Assembly (NCBI GenBank): GCA_009781145.1
Contig: WQYR01000004.1
Coordinates: 1-40,265, forward strand
DNA length: 40,265 nt
Reading direction: 5' to 3'
Origin: Propionibacteriaceae bacterium
Lineage (GTDB): Bacteria; Actinomycetota; Actinomycetes; Propionibacteriales; Propionibacteriaceae
Position 1 is the first letter of the stretch; each line of letters opens with the position of its first letter. The notes beneath the pieces are model-generated. The model saw only the letters and a program-made list of their open reading frames with translations, did no database searches and was not told where the DNA came from. The position numbers and the translations under genes are program-made. Positions 1 to 15,909 of the stretch are shown here, piece after piece.

Positions 1-15
1 ATTCGTGCCCTATTT

Positions 16-49
16 TTGCCTACAGTTGCCTACAGTTGCCTACAGTTGC
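16..49. repeat. 10-bp direct tandem repeat (TTGCCTACAG x3 plus a partial fourth unit)
   Basis: Read directly: ttgcctacag ttgcctacag ttgcctacag ttgc. Confidence 0.9.
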
Positions 50-116
50 AACTCTGCCGATTTGTGAATATCCACTTGACTAGGTGTTTTGGCTTGTCAG
101 AAGTACTTAGAAACGG

Positions 117-189
117 TGGAGCATAGGGGATTCGAACCCCTGGCCTCTTCCATGCCATGGAAGCGCGCTACCAACTGCGCCAATGCCCC
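117..189 (-). tRNA. tRNA-Ala (anticodon GGC)
   Basis: Minus strand GGGGCATTGGCGCAGTTGGTAGCGCGCTTCCATGGCATGGAAGAGGCCAGGGGTTCGAATCCCCTATGCTCCA folds as a cloverleaf; anticodon loop ATGGCAT; T-arm GGTTCGAATCC. Confidence 0.95.
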
Positions 190-264
190 GAAAGCGTCTC
201 TACGTTACCCGATGGGTACCCCGTCAGGCAACTGGGTTCTGTTACAACCCGGTATGCTGAGCCG

Positions 265-717
265 GTGGAACAAGCATCGCAAGTCAACCTGCCCGCGGGG
301 TACGAGTTTTCAACTGACCCCGCGCGGTTGGACCCGGAAAAGGTTCACTACCTGCTTCACAGCTACGCCTACTGGGCGGCCAATCGAACCCGGCAGACCC
401 AAGACGCCGCCATCGCAAAGTCTCGCAACTACGGCGTATACGCGCTGCCCTCGCAGCAGCAGGTGGCATATGCCCGCATAGTCACGGACGAGATCACTTT
501 CGCCTGGCTGGCTGATGTGATCGTCGACCCCGAGCACCGTGGACGCGGACTTGCCCGAGGGCTAATCGCTGGCGTGGTCGCCGACCTTGAGCCGCTGTGC
601 CTCAAAAGAATCGTGCTGAAGGCATCGGATGAGGGCAGGCACCTCTACGAGCAATTCGGCTGGGAGCCAGTGGACAACCCCGATTCCTGGATGGAGCTTC
701 GCACACACGCCGCGTAG
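265..717 (+). CDS. GNAT family N-acetyltransferase
   Basis: ORF 157-717 begins inside the tRNA, so an in-frame GTG at 265 is the more likely start. Contains GNAT motif VIVDPEHRGRGLARGLI and C-terminal LYEQFGWEPV. Confidence 0.8.
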   Translation: MEQASQVNLPAGYEFSTDPARLDPEKVHYLLHSYAYWAANRTRQTQDAAIAKSRNYGVYALPSQQQVAYARIVTDEITFAWLADVIVDPEHRGRGLARGLIAGVVADLEPLCLKRIVLKASDEGRHLYEQFGWEPVDNPDSWMELRTHAA

Positions 718-755
718 CTCCGTGGATATTGGGCGCCCAGTCGGGCAGAATAGAC
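676..755. repeat. Direct repeat copy 1 (GNAT 3' end plus hemE leader); exact match to 3373-3452
   Basis: 80 bp read as identical at offset 2697. Copy 1 has an extra 9-bp tandem AGAATAGAC before the alignment continues to the ATG. Confidence 0.95.
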
Positions 756-768
756 AGAATAGACGATC

Positions 769-1026
769 ATGCCTGAATCGTCGTCCTGTCACTTGCGTTT
801 GGTTCATGTGCCAGGCCGGACCTAGCTTGCCCGGATACAACCAGGCCCGCCAAACTCGGTGTGCCCCTCGCCCACTTCAGCACCCAACATGGAGCATCTG
901 CTGTCGGCCATGTGGGAGGTCCTGCAGGCCGCCGGAGCAGCCTCACCCGTCATCGGTGCCGACTATCGCACACCCTTGCATGCTTCCGCATTGATCGTGT
1001 CGGCCGTGCCGCTGCAAGACAACACC
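769..1026 (+). pseudogene. Decayed, internally deleted hemE (uroporphyrinogen decarboxylase) relic
   Basis: TTTGGTTCATGTGCCAGGCCGGACCTAGCTTGCCCGGATACAACCAGGCCCGC matches the hemE 5' region. After a deletion of about 0.6 kb, MEHLLSAMWEVLQAAGAASPVIGADYRTPLHASALIVSAVPLQDN parallels HemE TEHLLPAMRDVLLAAGVDAPVIGVDYRTPLDTAAAIVPGVPLQGN, with a +1 frameshift. Confidence 0.92.
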
Positions 1027-1197
1027 CATGACCACAACACCCCGACCGAGGCCGGGATAGCGTATCGTTCAATACAGCAACAGCTGAAAACCCAGTGATC
1101 CACACAGCCCAACCGGCGGCAACAAACCAGGGAACCACACCGGTTGAACTCGCGTGTGGCGGGGTGAACTGATGTGTGCAAGGGAAAGGACAGTTTC

Positions 1198-2673
1198 ATG
1201 AGCCTTAATGGGATAGGCACACTGAAGCAGGCGGCAATTGACGCCTACATGAGGGATCTGAACATGTATGACCCCCTCAGCTACGGTCAGTGGGCAGACT
1301 CGCGCGCCGACTGTTTCGGGTACGAGAGTCGTACTGACAACGGTTATCAACTATGCGACATGCTACAGCGCACTGCCACGGTGTCGCGACCGGATGGAAA
1401 TGGTGTCGGTGGCGGTGCCGTGGTGTCACTGTCTTCTGTTTCTGGACATTCTGGGCGAGCGGTGCGACCGGTACCAAATTTCGCTGCCATTTTCGACGGT
1501 ATTTGCAACATGATCGACCATACTCTGAGCCCGTTGATGGGCCTTCCAGAGCTCGACGGATTCTACGACCTTCAGAGGGCCTTGGGGCCGGCCTGTAAGG
1601 CGCTGATCACGTCTAGGGCTGGCGGCGGACTTGGCGGGGGGCTGTCTGATCCCATCACCATGATCCTGGGTTTCCTCGATGATTTTCGCAGCGAGTTCCT
1701 AAAGGCCTTCGACGTCAACTATCTGTCTCGCATGCAAGATGCAGTCGCCGCGTATTACGCCATCGGCCTGGCGCTGGGTGCGGCTTTAGGCGGCGAGGAT
1801 GGCCTCTGGAAGAAGACCGACGAGGTAGCGAACACGGCCATCCGACAAGCGACCGATGCTTTTAAGAATCATTCGAACGAGGCCCTCACGACATGGTCAG
1901 AGGACTTGAGCATCGTCCGTGTGATGATCGACGGCATCACACTCTTCGCGGCTGTGGCGTCTCTCGCCGTGCCGCCCGCCGGGGTGGCTGTGATGACCCA
2001 GTTGCTAGCCGGCTTGACACTTGTCACTGATGCAGGTGAGGCCGCTGTGCAAGCGTCGCAACCGGGACCTTCATTCACCTCGATAATGCAGGCTTTCGAG
2101 GATTCCATCACGGGCATAGTCGCCGACACTCGCACGCAGGAACAACTACTAGACGACAACCTGCTGGACTGGTGCCGCTCTTGTAGCGACGGCCACATGA
2201 ACTTGAGCAATCAACTGGCCGGCGAACCAATCGCTTCACCGGAGAGTTGGCCGAGCATCGACATCGACCTGAAGCGATGCCGCGACGTATACACCATCTA
2301 CTTGCCGGAGATATTGGAGGGTTTGGTCGCGGCCCGCACGACGGTTGAGTCTTTGACTGACAGTCAACCCTGGTATCGCGATGACAGGCTTGGTATCGGC
2401 TATCGCGGCTGTTGGGCGCGGTGGGACGAACTGCGTTGGGTCTTGCGCGACCTGCTGGCCGACTTGGAATGGCAAACTGACAAAGCCATCCAGGTGATGA
2501 CAAACATTGCCTTGGCTTTTGAAAATCACGATCAAGGCGCAGCCACCCAGCTGGCCAGCCTGAGCCAGACGCTCGATGGTGGCAGCGGTTGCTCGCCTAC
2601 CGCATTGCCGCCTGACTGGCCGGCAGACGACGGGTACCATGAGCATCGCCATGACAGCATCGGAGGTTACTGA
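1198..2673 (+). CDS. Hypothetical helical protein (about 491 aa) with weak resemblance to actinobacterial type VII secretion substrates
   Basis: ATG at 1198 follows the SD-like GGGAAAGGA. Long helical stretches, central Ala/Val-rich hydrophobic segment, C-terminal FENHD (Y/F-x3-D/E-like). No family recognised with confidence. Confidence 0.75.
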   Translation: MSLNGIGTLKQAAIDAYMRDLNMYDPLSYGQWADSRADCFGYESRTDNGYQLCDMLQRTATVSRPDGNGVGGGAVVSLSSVSGHSGRAVRPVPNFAAIFDGICNMIDHTLSPLMGLPELDGFYDLQRALGPACKALITSRAGGGLGGGLSDPITMILGFLDDFRSEFLKAFDVNYLSRMQDAVAAYYAIGLALGAALGGEDGLWKKTDEVANTAIRQATDAFKNHSNEALTTWSEDLSIVRVMIDGITLFAAVASLAVPPAGVAVMTQLLAGLTLVTDAGEAAVQASQPGPSFTSIMQAFEDSITGIVADTRTQEQLLDDNLLDWCRSCSDGHMNLSNQLAGEPIASPESWPSIDIDLKRCRDVYTIYLPEILEGLVAARTTVESLTDSQPWYRDDRLGIGYRGCWARWDELRWVLRDLLADLEWQTDKAIQVMTNIALAFENHDQGAATQLASLSQTLDGGSGCSPTALPPDWPADDGYHEHRHDSIGGY

Positions 2674-2674
2674 G

Positions 2675-3349
2675 GTGAGACGGCCACTTATCGCAATCGC
2701 AGCCATCCTCATGTCCATGTTGACGGCATGCGCCCCTGGACCGCAGACCCCAACAGTGCCAGCATCTTCGACACCAGAAAAAACGCCGTCGTCACCCATG
2801 ACAAGCCCGGTCCCCACAGTCCGAGGCGCCAGCGGTCCACTTGGCGTGGTGCATGCCAACCAAACCTGGATTGATGCCAGTACCGGCCTATCCGTGACGG
2901 TAGAGCAGGTCACAACGGCACCACTGCCAGGATCGACAGTCAAGCCCAGCTGGGATATCTATGCCCAGGTGTTTGGATTGCGCGTTGCGGTCGACACGAC
3001 CGGCACGACATCTCGGGGAGTGACCCTTGACGCATGGCCGCCGATAGCCTCGGCGTCGGGGTTTTGGCTGTTGTCGTTGGATCAGAAGCACGGCGCCAAT
3101 TGCTTCACACTTACGTTCGATATGAGTGAGGCCGAACAAAGACAGGCGCTTGCCGCGATTGATGGGGACACGGTATTCGACAAGCAGTCCGAGCGTGGGG
3201 ATGGCTGGATAATGTGCGGGGTCTTTCCAGATGACGTCGCGTCTTTATCTGCTGGGTTCACAGTGATCTTCGACGCGGCGGCGGCACACACCGCCGACGG
3301 GAAAACAGTCGGCAGCCCGCCGCTCGCCATCGTCGCGGTGGCTCCGTGA
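2675..3349 (+). CDS. Putative secreted lipoprotein
   Basis: GTG at 2675 after GGAGG; RRPLIAIAAILMSMLTAC is a signal peptide with lipobox LTAC, followed by a Pro/Ser/Thr-rich linker; start codon nearly coupled to the upstream stop. Confidence 0.75.
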   Translation: MRRPLIAIAAILMSMLTACAPGPQTPTVPASSTPEKTPSSPMTSPVPTVRGASGPLGVVHANQTWIDASTGLSVTVEQVTTAPLPGSTVKPSWDIYAQVFGLRVAVDTTGTTSRGVTLDAWPPIASASGFWLLSLDQKHGANCFTLTFDMSEAEQRQALAAIDGDTVFDKQSERGDGWIMCGVFPDDVASLSAGFTVIFDAAAAHTADGKTVGSPPLAIVAVAP

Positions 3350-3372
3350 CAGTGGTGCCCGCTCCGCATCCA

Positions 3373-3452
3373 AACCCCGATTCCTGGATGGAGCTTCGCA
3401 CACACGCCGCGTAGCTCCGTGGATATTGGGCGCCCAGTCGGGCAGAATAGAC
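3373..3452. repeat. Direct repeat copy 2 (remnant GNAT 3' end plus hemE leader)
   Basis: Exact match to 676-755; encodes the last GNAT residues (PDSWMELRTHAA*) detached from the rest of the gene. Confidence 0.95.
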
Positions 3453-3456
3453 GATC

Positions 3457-4506
3457 ATGCTTGAAACACCGTCACTTGTACGCGCCATGCGCGGCGACCG
3501 TCCACCTGTCACGCCCGTTTGGTTCATGCGACAGGCCGGGCGCAGCTTGCCCGAATACAACCAGGCCCGCGGCAACACCACCATGTTGGAAGCCTGCCTG
3601 ACGCCCGAACTCGCCGCCGAGATAACCATGCAGCCGGTGCGCCGCCTGGGCGTGGACGCAGCGGTTTTCTTCTCCGACATCGTTGTGCCGCTCAAGCTGG
3701 CCGGGGTCGGCGTCGAGATCGCCCCTGGCGTCGGTCCCGTCATGGATCAGCCGTACCGCACGCCGGCAGACATCGCCCGCCTGTGCGAGGCAACGCTAAC
3801 GGACGACGCGCTGGCGCCGATCACCGAGGCCGTGCGGTTGACGGTAGCCGAATTGGGAGCCACTCCCCTGCTCGGTTTCGCAGGCGCGCCGTTCACGCTG
3901 GCCGCCTACCTGGTTGAGGGCAGGCCGTCGAAGGATCACATGGCCGCCCGCACGCTGATGCACGCCGACCCGGATTCGTGGGCCCGTCTTCTGAACTGGG
4001 CGGCCGACATCACTGGAGCTTTCCTGGCAGCGCAAGTTCGTGCCGGCGCCAGCGCCGTGCAACTGTTTGACTCGTGGGTGGGCAGCCTTTCGGTGGCCGA
4101 TTACACGGCCCATGTGGCCCCCGCCAGTACCCGCGCGCTGACCGGCGTGGCCAAGCTGGGTGTGCCCGTCGTCCACTTCGGCACCAACACAGAGCATCTG
4201 CTGCCCGCCATGAGGGACGTCCTGCTGGCTGCCGGCGTGGATGCACCCGTTATCGGCGTCGACTACCGCACACCCTTGGACACTGCCGCCGCAATCGTTC
4301 CGGGAGTGCCGCTGCAGGGAAACATCGATCCTGCCATGCTGGCCGCCGGGTGGCCGGCGCTCAGCGCCCATGTGTGTGACGTTCTGGAGCGTGGACGCCA
4401 AGCCCCGGCGCATGTGGCCAATCTCGGCCACGGTGTGCCCCCCGAAACCGACCCCGACGTGCTGAAGCGCGTCGTCGAACTGATCCATGAGACCACCAAT
4501 GACTAG
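3457..4506 (+). CDS. hemE: Uroporphyrinogen decarboxylase
   Basis: RPPVTPVWFMRQAGRSLPEYNQAR and GFAGAPFTLAAYLVEG motifs. Confidence 0.97.
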   Translation: MLETPSLVRAMRGDRPPVTPVWFMRQAGRSLPEYNQARGNTTMLEACLTPELAAEITMQPVRRLGVDAAVFFSDIVVPLKLAGVGVEIAPGVGPVMDQPYRTPADIARLCEATLTDDALAPITEAVRLTVAELGATPLLGFAGAPFTLAAYLVEGRPSKDHMAARTLMHADPDSWARLLNWAADITGAFLAAQVRAGASAVQLFDSWVGSLSVADYTAHVAPASTRALTGVAKLGVPVVHFGTNTEHLLPAMRDVLLAAGVDAPVIGVDYRTPLDTAAAIVPGVPLQGNIDPAMLAAGWPALSAHVCDVLERGRQAPAHVANLGHGVPPETDPDVLKRVVELIHETTND

Positions 4507-5446
4507 CGGCACAGTCCGCGTCGGTACCCGGCGCAGCACGCTGGCAACCACCCAGACGGGCCACGTGATCGCCAGTCTGTCGAAACTGCTGGATCGTCCC
4601 GTCGAACCGGTGCTGATCCGCACGGACGGTGATGTGCTCACCGGCTCGTTGGCGTCCCTGGGCGGGACGGGCGTCTTCGTCGCGGCCCTGCGCGAGGCGG
4701 TGCTGGACGGACGGTGCGACCTTGCCGTCCACTCGCTGAAGGACCTGCCGGCGGCAGCGGTGCCCGGCCTGACGCTGTTCACCCCGCCGCGCGAAGACCC
4801 GCACGACGTGCTGTGCGCGCCGCCAGGCGCAACCTGGGAAAACCTTCCCACGGGGGCCCGCGTTGGCACTGGGTCGCCCCGGCGAGCAGCCCAACTGCGT
4901 GCGCTGCGCCCGGACATCGAACCGGTAGACATTCGGGGAAATGTTGACACCCGGCTGTCACGTGCGCTTGGCGCGGAGGCGGACCTAGACGCTGTCGTAC
5001 TCGCACGTGCCGGCTTGGCGCGCCTGGGACGCCTCGATGCGGTGTCGTCGGTGTTCGATGCTGCCGACATGACACCGGCCCCTGGACAAGGAGCCCTGGC
5101 AATCGAGGCGAGCGATGCCGCCTTGGCCGGCATGTCGCTGGCCACCGCCCTAGCCGCCCTCGACGACGAGCCGACCCACCTGGCAGTCACCGCCGAACGC
5201 GCCCTGCTGGAGCGTCTGGGCGCCGGTTGCGCTGCCCCAGTTGGCGCGCTAGGCACCCTGAGCGGCACCACCTTGAGCCTTCAGTCCGTCGTCGCCAGCT
5301 TGGACGGATCGCGCCGCCTGGTGCGGGCAGCGGGCGTCACGTTGACCGATTCCGATAGGCAAGCCGCGGCCAGGCAACTTGGCATCGATCTGGCTGAGAC
5401 TCTGTTGAGTGACGGGGCTGCTGACGTGGCTCCGCTTGGGATGTGA
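4487..5446 (+). CDS. hemC: Hydroxymethylbilane synthase (porphobilinogen deaminase)
   Basis: VRVGTRRSTLATTQT, VHSLKDLP, GTGSPRRAAQL; start possibly the ATG at 4499. Confidence 0.97.
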   Translation: MRPPMTSGTVRVGTRRSTLATTQTGHVIASLSKLLDRPVEPVLIRTDGDVLTGSLASLGGTGVFVAALREAVLDGRCDLAVHSLKDLPAAAVPGLTLFTPPREDPHDVLCAPPGATWENLPTGARVGTGSPRRAAQLRALRPDIEPVDIRGNVDTRLSRALGAEADLDAVVLARAGLARLGRLDAVSSVFDAADMTPAPGQGALAIEASDAALAGMSLATALAALDDEPTHLAVTAERALLERLGAGCAAPVGALGTLSGTTLSLQSVVASLDGSRRLVRAAGVTLTDSDRQAAARQLGIDLAETLLSDGAADVAPLGM

Positions 5447-5449
5447 ACC

Positions 5450-6214
5450 ATGGCAGACAGCTTGGCGGGCCGGACGGTTCTGATCGCCCGCGACCCGAGC
5501 CGGGCCGAAGGACTGCGGGCACGGCTTGAGGCGCTGGGCGCAGCCGTAATAGTCTCCCCCGTCACCGCCACAATGGCTGGTGACGAGGACGAGCTGGACG
5601 CCGTCACCGCCGCCTTGCCGAGCTTTGATTGGGTAGTTGTTGCCAGCGTCAACGCCGTCAATGCATTGCGCGACGCAGCGCAGCGGGCATCCGTAGACCT
5701 GACTGAGGTCCCGACGAGCTGGGCAGCGGTGGGGCCAACGACTGCCTCTGCGCTGGATGCCCTTGGTATCACAGTGGCCATTGTGCCGGAAGACCACTCC
5801 GCTGCAGGGCTTGTGGCGGAACTGGCAAAAACCGCCACACCAGGCCAGCGTGCCCTCCTTCCCCAAGGCGATCTGGCCGCCCCTACCATGGCGGAAGGCC
5901 TCCAGGCTGCGGGCTTTGGAGTCACCGCCGTGACGGCCTATCGCACCGTCCCGGAGATGCTCGACCCAGGCACCACCGAGGCCTGGGCAGCCGGCACAAT
6001 CGATGCCGCCGTGATCGCCGCGTCCAGCGCGGCCAGACAAGTTGCCGCCCAGGTGGACGTCAAGATCCCCGTCGCAATTGTTGCAATCGGCAACTCGACT
6101 GCCAAGACCGCCCGCGAGTGCGGCTTCATGTCGGTAGTTGTCGCAGATGATTCGACCGACGATGCGTTAGCCGATGCCGTCTACAAAGCTGCGGCTGATA
6201 ATCTGTTGCAATGA
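5450..6214 (+). CDS. hemD: Uroporphyrinogen-III synthase
   Basis: HemD-like sequence and position in hemECDB; overlaps hemB by 4 nt. Confidence 0.92.
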
Positions 6215-7212
6215 ATTCTTTGCCAATTGGCACCCCGCGCCCTCGTCGCCTGCGCACCACCGCGTCAATGCGCCGTCTCGTCGCCGAGACGCGCCTGCAC
6301 CCCGCCAACCTCGTCTTACCGATGTTCGTCAAAGAGGGCCTCAGCGAGCCCAAGCCGATTGCGTCCATGCCGGGTGTCGTTCAGCACACCCTGGCGTCGC
6401 TGGCCGACGCCATCGGCGATGCCACGCACGCCGGAGTTGGTGGCGTCATGCTGTTTGGCATTCCGGCCCACCGCGACGCTACCGGCACGGCCGGCGACGC
6501 GCCGGATGGCATCCTGCAGCAGGCCCTGACGGTGGCCCGGGAGACCGTCGACAAGGCGGCGACTGGGCTGACCCGTCCCGTCGTGATGACTGACACCTGT
6601 TTGGACGAGTTCACCGATCACGGTCACTGCGGCGTCCTGACGGCAGACGGACGGGTGGACAACGACGCCACCCTTGAGCGCTACGCATCAATGGCGGTCG
6701 CCCAGGCCCGAGCCGGTGCCGAGGTCGTCGGGCCGTCGGGCATGATGGACGGCCAGGTCGGCGCCATCCGGGCCGCGCTCGACGAGGCCGGGTTCACCGA
6801 CACAGCCATACTGGCCTATGCCGTCAAGTACGCGTCCGCCCTTTTCGGGCCGTTCCGTGAGGCCGTCGACTCGACCCTCAAGGGCGACCGGCGCACCTAT
6901 CAGATGGATCCGGCAAACGGCCGCGAAGGCCTGCGCGAGGTTGATCTTGACCTGGCGGAAGGCGCCGACATGGTGATGGTCAAGCCAGCCGGGTCATACC
7001 TGGACGTTCTGGCCGCCGTCGCCGACCGCAGCGATGTGCCAGTGGCCGCCTACCAGGTTTCGGGCGAGTACGCGATGGTCGAGGCTGCCGCAGCCAACGG
7101 CTGGATCGACCGCAAGGCCGCCGTGCTAGAAACCGTCCTGGGCATCAGACGGGCCGGCGCCGACATCGTCTTGACCTATTGGGCCACAGAAATCGCCCAC
7201 TGGATCAACTGA
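6211..7212 (+). CDS. hemB: Delta-aminolevulinic acid dehydratase (porphobilinogen synthase)
   Basis: [47 protein letters not shown]. Confidence 0.97.
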
Positions 7213-7256
7213 ACGTCATCCTGCACAAGGTGCCGATAGCAGTCACCCACCTTTTC

Positions 7257-13990: not shown

Positions 13991-14937
13991 CGGGCCGCCA
14001 AAGAGACGACGCCCAGCCCGGCAATCAACGCAAAAAGAAGCGCCACCCCGGCCAGGCGCTCGGTGATCTCAGACAACTCCTCGACGTACCCGACGTCCTG
14101 GGCGATGGTTTGGTACACCGCTGAAAGATCAGACACCGACGACGCGGCGAACTTTTTGCCGCCGGACGCCTTGGCGATGTTCGACAGTTCGGCATGATTG
14201 ACCGGCACCCTTTGTCGCTGGCCATTTTCGATGATGTAGCCGTTGTCCGTGCCATAGGCGATCGTGTAGATGGGCACGCCCCGCTGCCCCGCCAGTTCGG
14301 CGGCCCCTGCCGATGGTTTGCCAGTGTTGGTCGACCCGTCCGACAGCAGCACGATGGCCCCTGGTGCCGGATCGTCCGGGTGCTGCGGGTCGGGCGGTGC
14401 CAGCTCCAACGCGCGCAGCGACGTGTAGATACCCTCACCGATAGCGGTGGACGGCTGCAACTGAAGCGAGTCGATGGCCCGCTTCGCGGCGCCTCGATCG
14501 GTACTGGGAGCCATGACGATGTTGGCCGTTGCCGCGAAACTGACCACGGCAAGGTTGAATGTCGCGGGCAGCAAGTCGACGAAACTGGATGCCGCCGCCT
14601 TCTCGGCGTCGATTCGGGTGGGCGCCACGTCGGTCGCCGACATGGATATCGACACGTCGATGGCGATGACGATGGTGGCACGATCCTTCGGCACGTTCAC
14701 CATGGCGGCGGGCTGGGCGTAGGCCAACACCAACGCGGCCAGCGAAAGCAACGAAGCGACCACCGAAAAGTGCCGCTTCCAGGCCGATTCGACGGGCAGC
14801 AACCGCGTCAGCCGACGGGCTCCGGTTGGGTTGCGCAGCCGCAACGACAACCCCGCATAGACAATCGCGATCGCTGGCACGAGCAGCAGCCACCAGAGCC
14901 TTTGCGGGCTCATGAATGAAAGGACCATCGCTACCAT
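13981..14937 (-). CDS. VWA domain-containing membrane protein (BatA-like)
   Basis: VIAIDVSISMSATD (MIDAS), IVLLSDGSTNTG, terminal TM segments. Confidence 0.9.
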   Translation of the reverse strand: MVAMVLSFMSPQRLWWLLLVPAIAIVYAGLSLRLRNPTGARRLTRLLPVESAWKRHFSVVASLLSLAALVLAYAQPAAMVNVPKDRATIVIAIDVSISMSATDVAPTRIDAEKAAASSFVDLLPATFNLAVVSFAATANIVMAPSTDRGAAKRAIDSLQLQPSTAIGEGIYTSLRALELAPPDPQHPDDPAPGAIVLLSDGSTNTGKPSAGAAELAGQRGVPIYTIAYGTDNGYIIENGQRQRVPVNHAELSNIAKASGGKKFAASSVSDLSAVYQTIAQDVGYVEELSEITERLAGVALLFALIAGLGVVSLAARWP

Positions 14938-15909
14938 TTACGGCCACCTCGCTGCCATCGATACCGCTCCGAGTGCTGCCACCACGGCAAAGGCCAGGGC
15001 GTACAGCGCCCAGCGTGCCGTCACCTCTTTGTTGACGTCGTCGTAACCGACTTCGCTCTTCAACTGGTTGTAGACGTTGTTGATCTGGCTTACAGACGCG
15101 GCGTCATAGGCTTTCCCGCCGGTGACTTGGGCTATCTGGTTGAGTGTGGCCTTGTCTGGCGCCACGTTCGCCCGCTGCCCGTCGATGTCGACGTAGCCGT
15201 TGGCCGTACCGTAGGCGATGGTAAAGATAGGCACCTTCTTGGCGGCCGCGTTGTTGGCGGCCTCCATCGTGTCGAACCCCTTGGTGCTGGTGCCGTCCGA
15301 CAGCAGGATCATCAGGGCCGGTGCCGACCGGCCACTGGCATCAGGCGGAGCCTGCGCGATGGTGACCAGACCAACGGTGATGGCGTCCCCGATGGCTGTG
15401 CCGTTCTCGGTAGTCAAAGAATCGATTGACCGTAGCACCATACCGCGGTCGGTCGACGGCGGCCCGTACGACGAAGGCGAGCCCGCAAGCGACACCACCG
15501 AGACGTTGTATTGCGGCGGCAGTTGGTTGACGAAGTCGGTGGCTGCCGCCTTGGCGGCGTCCAAGCGGTTGGGCGAAATGTCGGTGGCCGACATCGACAT
15601 CGAGTTGTCGATCAGAAGCACGATGGTGGCCCGCTCGCGTGGCACCTTTTCAACACCCGCCGGACGTGCCCATGCCCCAGATATCAACACCAGCGAACAC
15701 AGCGCCATGGCCACGGTGACGTGACGCCGCCACTGGCTCTGCTTCGGCAGGACGGCCGCGAGCACTCCCGTGTTGGTGTACCGGATGCCCGAGCGCTTCG
15801 ACAGGTGCAGACCCACGATGTAAAGCGCAATCAGCAGCGGCAAGGCTAGCAGCGCCCAAAGGCGCCCGGGGGCGAAGAATTCGAATGGGCCAACCGGTGT
15901 CGCAATCAT
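14938..15909 (-). CDS. VWA domain-containing membrane protein (paralogue)
   Basis: VLLIDNSMSMSATD, MILLSDGTSTKG; ATG at 15909 overlaps the DUF58 stop. Confidence 0.9.
   Translation of the reverse strand: MIATPVGPFEFFAPGRLWALLALPLLIALYIVGLHLSKRSGIRYTNTGVLAAVLPKQSQWRRHVTVAMALCSLVLISGAWARPAGVEKVPRERATIVLLIDNSMSMSATDISPNRLDAAKAAATDFVNQLPPQYNVSVVSLAGSPSSYGPPSTDRGMVLRSIDSLTTENGTAIGDAITVGLVTIAQAPPDASGRSAPALMILLSDGTSTKGFDTMEAANNAAAKKVPIFTIAYGTANGYVDIDGQRANVAPDKATLNQIAQVTGGKAYDAASVSQINNVYNQLKSEVGYDDVNKEVTARWALYALAFAVVAALGAVSMAARWP

Follow-up and report, generated by a model that had tools for sequence, protein, structure and literature searches.

The GNAT–hemE junction of a Propionibacteriaceae genome probably records a partial duplication that arose within its own lineage, in which one hemE copy decayed to a relic, a gene pair came to lie at the junction, and an adjoining repeat was kept identical by recombination. 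The window, i.e., the whole stretch of 40,265 nucleotides that was analyzed, is contig C4 of a draft genome (G000) of 232 contigs with 81% completeness. The locus as a whole is an unremarkable case of genome plasticity, apart from one oddity: 80 bases that stayed identical beside a decayed neighbor.

The window opens with tRNA-Ala(GGC) on the reverse strand (115–189), followed on the forward strand by an intact GNAT acetyltransferase (253–717; Pfam Acetyltransf_7/_1), the hemE relic (769–1029), ORF A (1198–2673), ORF B (2675–3349), and an intact resident hemE (3457–4506). The latter encodes a uroporphyrinogen decarboxylase of 349 aa, with Pfam URO-D and TIGR01464 matches above cut-off. The 3′ end of GNAT is the left copy of a forward-strand direct repeat (676–755), while the right copy (3373–3452) consists of a GNAT 3′ fragment and the hemE leader. 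The exact 80-bp match noticed in the sequence-only reading is borne out: self-comparison of the window gives 100% identity across 80 bp, and a whole-assembly search places the repeat at exactly two sites (E 3.6e-36 each). Read by eye, copy 1 holds one additional AGAATAGAC, a 9-bp tandem duplication, and allowing for this slip the homology continues to 772 on the left and 3460 on the right, spanning 88 bases. Past these positions, the copies diverge sharply into relic and intact hemE, respectively. A promoter and terminator scan of the region returned nothing of note above chance.

The relic retains the hemE start region and codons of about 15–38 and 232–291, and it is marked by one additional base near 884, a frameshift, and large internal deletions. 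Its segments 779–850, 849–884, and 884–1029 match resident hemE at 85%, 86%, and 76%, respectively, with counterparts at 3499–3570 and about 4150–4329, in agreement with the earlier description of copy 1 as leading into a deleted, frameshifted, and diverged hemE remnant and copy 2 into intact hemE. Beyond 1029, no significant hemE match is found (52 of 500 shuffles score equally well). Over 249 aligned sites, the relic is 80% identical to resident hemE and 77% identical to hemE of the sister species G002, while the two working genes are 84% identical to each other. A DNA tree built on these 249 sites joins the relic to resident hemE with G002 outside (IQ-TREE SH-aLRT/UFB 92.6/97; FastTree 0.945; shared-site counts 19 vs 12, polarised 8 vs 3), and the relic branch is longer than that of resident hemE (0.22 vs 0.08). 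Changes private to the relic fall on codon positions 1/2/3 as 7/12/10, compared with 9/2/20 for the two working hemE genes (p 0.005 by chi-square; 0.04 by Fisher for the third position). Frameshift, deletions, and this distribution show that the relic has lost reading frame and codon constraint. The even spread over codon positions, together with the tree, therefore indicates that it evolved mostly as a pseudogene. There is moderate support, from 249 sites, for the relic as a decayed duplicate of resident hemE rather than a foreign allele, and it probably arose in this lineage shortly after the separation from G002.

A foreign hemE allele brought in by homologous integration had been offered as the other possible origin. 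Under such a scheme, circular or linear DNA from a related species, bearing a GNAT 3′ end, a piece of hemE, and ORFs A and B, would have integrated at the GNAT–hemE junction by a single crossover, with the foreign hemE surviving as the relic. A single crossover yields the exact order GNAT–repeat–relic–insert–repeat–hemE, and a foreign source would accommodate both a relic that differs from resident hemE by 20% beside an identical repeat and the dispersed relatives of the A/B pair. However, the relic groups with resident hemE, although on just 249 sites, and its private changes show no third-position excess; hence, only a small part of its divergence accrued while the gene was functional. It would also be improbable, without later conversion, for a donor to differ by 20% in hemE yet share exactly a leader that normally changes fast. 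Foreign integration is thus disfavored and regarded as unlikely.

The unoccupied state of the locus is seen in G002, where the counterparts of window positions 117–850 and 3420–7215 are contiguous (C99, L028) and comprise tRNA-Ala, GNAT, hemE, and the subsequent genes. The GNAT ortholog is 76% identical and stands directly before hemE, the left neighbor tRNA-Ala is conserved, and neither relic nor insert lies between GNAT and hemE. Given this direct adjacency, duplication and insert are most simply taken as the derived state of this lineage; alternatively, the insert may have been lost in G002. The suggestion that hemE is a recurrent landing site is unsupported because the G002 hemE site is empty. 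G002 is the one relative that informs on this site: of the seven genomes in the genus, four (G003–G006) gave no hemE match, perhaps through loss of heme synthesis or because the bins are incomplete, and GNAT was not seen adjoining hemE in the other family genomes inspected.

Several side observations concern hemE and the surrounding sequence. G001 carries two hemE pieces at contig ends (L029 1–984 and L030 7405–7838), 78% identical over 398 bp, which represent either two copies or a mixed bin. The hemE of the genus (window 3457–4506; L028, L029, L030) groups with Promicromonosporaceae/Cellulomonadaceae (96/91) and not with its own family, consistent with a possible old transfer. A hemE scan yielded matches from other actinobacterial families only. 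The G000 and G002 contigs both terminate at or just past tRNA-Ala (window 1–190; L028 7046), and the window starts with a 10-base tandem repeat, maybe another repeat-rich site. A further direct repeat in the window pairs 14543–14685 with 15494–15636 (71% over 143 bp).

The absence of divergence in the GNAT–hemE repeat is the feature that calls for recombination. From the branch lengths of the relic and resident hemE in the tree, the 88 repeat bases would be expected to have accumulated between ~14 changes (slower, constrained rate) and ~26 (relic rate), compared with 0 observed (Poisson order 1e-6 to 1e-12). In G002, the corresponding stretch has changed strongly and differs in length by 32 bases, so it is not intrinsically conserved. 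Thus, the repeat was probably homogenized by recombination, either between its copies or with a member of the same species that lacks the insert, which is the simplest account; it is solely the missing divergence that points to gene conversion here. Conversion among repeats is well documented in an actinobacterium (PMC12046097).

It is proposed that, after the split from G002, a segment reaching from the last GNAT codons to at least hemE codon 290 was duplicated, measuring ~960 bp before later deletions. A two-gene unit from a type VII secretion system (T7SS) gene family, composed of ORF A and the lipoprotein gene ORF B, would have been placed exactly at the duplication junction, presumably in the same single event. 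The left hemE copy, being redundant, would have decayed as a pseudogene while function stayed with the right copy. The GNAT-3′/hemE-leader repeat would have been held identical, most likely by later recombination between copies or with an insert-free strain, since the left copy supplies the 3′ end that GNAT requires, and the right copy still serves as the hemE leader. An old duplication with flanks homogenized by gene conversion was among the origins first considered, and it is the one that best fits the tree (92.6/97; 0.945) and the loss of codon constraint. On this reading, the locus dates a duplication and an insertion to one lineage, and an 88-base repeat left unchanged next to a neighbor that has lost a fifth of its sequence would be a natural record of homogenizing recombination.

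ORF A encodes 491 aa, is predicted to be mostly helical, and is directly followed by ORF B, a putative lipoprotein with a conserved cysteine in a lipobox-like site and a GTG start read by eye. Neither has a Pfam or NCBIfam assignment, and the pair is conserved elsewhere. An AlphaFold model of ORF A (pLDDT 64, pTM 0.57) and a fold search with it (best E 0.057) were both uninformative. Relatives of ORF A are rare, occurring in 6 of the 148 family genomes and in 7 of 395 genomes sampled from the class. None was found in plasmid records, phage records, or viral contigs; hence, nothing suggests that a phage or plasmid carried the gene. A second A/B pair lies on contig C14 of the same genome (55% identical for A and 42% for B), and further pairs occur in G002. 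With dN/dS values of 0.37/2.85 and 0.55/2.66 (dS saturated), the C4 and C14 pairs have diverged mostly at synonymous sites, and ORFs A and B, both intact, are therefore maintained as genes while the adjacent relic rots. A 213-bp repeat around a pair in G002 (C213) was considered as a parallel case and set aside, as it more likely reflects pairs arrayed in tandem that share leaders.

The relatives of ORF A point toward type VII secretion. Some share contigs with EccB and EccD (C100 in G000; C104 in G002), and another adjoins a mycosin-type subtilase (C143 in G000), while the window copy of ORFs A and B is itself far from the T7SS locus. No WXG100, LXG, PE, or PPE domains were detected in nine ORF A relatives, the sole Pfam match being a weak PhoU. 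From this gene context, ORFs A and B may be linked to secretion in function, which points to an uncharacterized pair of genes with a connection to type VII secretion within the genus, an actinobacterial one. The two intervening ORFs had been called unrelated in the sequence-only reading; this holds with respect to hemE but not otherwise, as they form a recognizable pair with relatives in the T7SS locus of the genome. At C143 (L060 204–1136), a leucine-rich-repeat lipoprotein takes the place of ORF B after the ORF A relative, indicating that the partner of ORF A varies.

The C14 pair lies directly behind tRNA-Val, and the last 48 bases of the tRNA recur after its ORF B (92%). A third tRNA-Val piece of 40 bases (88%) precedes prfB, 1.4 kb on, with a second islet between that encodes a small WXG-like protein with no Pfam match and a membrane protein. 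In G002, a decayed tRNA-Val 3′ piece likewise lies upstream of prfB (L089 218–244, C34). Islets separated by tRNA 3′ fragments are seen at the tRNA-Val/prfB site in both species (L059 5534–9436 in G000), and this site, rather than hemE, looks like a recurrent landing place.

The C14 arrangement bears on whether the repeats in the window are att sites of a site-specific integrative element, in which case the insert would be a stripped remnant or a cassette served by an integrase in trans. A pair behind tRNA-Val with a repeated tRNA 3′ part has the layout of tRNA-targeted islands, and the window insert too lies at the 3′ end of a gene that stays intact. However, ORFs A and B are all that lies between the repeats, with no integrase or other recombinase family, and the targets differ (GNAT vs tRNA). 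The GNAT 3′ end does carry the exact repeat, and a longer decayed duplicate adjoins it; a short att core does not account for the hemE relic, several hundred bases long, that lies within the repeat. The att-site interpretation is accordingly held to be rather improbable.

An assembly artefact, in which a short-read graph joined two places via the 80-bp repeat, is very unlikely. It is a concern in a 232-contig draft of 81% completeness, since exact repeats this long are where graphs fail. However, the join of ORF B to the GNAT 3′ fragment, at 3372/3373, falls outside the repeat and would call for a separate explanation, a repeat of 80–97 bp fits within ordinary 150-base reads, and relic and insert show age rather than chimerism.

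In both dispersed units, at C4 and C14, the host DNA on the left side recurs on the right; their margins are similar in size (171 and 186 bp before ORF A, 23 and 41 bp after ORF B), their right ends are weakly alike (29 of 500 shuffles), and a common left end scored no better than shuffles. It is highly improbable that the pair, with ~170 bp before and 20–40 bp after it, is a compact mobile unit without a recombinase, moving out from the T7SS locus to other sites and doubling the neighboring host sequence every time (48 bp at tRNA-Val, ~1 kb at GNAT–hemE); if true, this would be an undescribed route by which cassettes disperse, for instance through replicative template switching.

Among known systems, the C14 pair resembles tRNA-bounded genomic islets in that it follows tRNA-Val and is flanked by a repeat of the tRNA 3′ part, whereas the window copy sits at a GNAT/hemE junction without a recombinase. 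The presence of A/B paralogs in repeated pairs on contigs with EccB, EccD, and mycosin is reminiscent of T7SS (ESX/WXG100) accessory and substrate sets, and T7SS paralogs are known to recombine in firmicutes (PMC9484751). In contrast to those substrate sets, ORF A matches none of the WXG100, LXG, PE, or PPE families, and the window copy is distant from the secretion locus. Repeat-driven conversion and duplication are described in Mycobacterium tuberculosis (PMC12046097); unlike duplications of that type, the present locus holds a two-gene unit at the junction and is identical only in the outer 88 bases. It is nonetheless like a partial tandem duplication with pseudogene decay and flank conversion, in which a segment is doubled, one copy is kept, and the repeats are homogenized.
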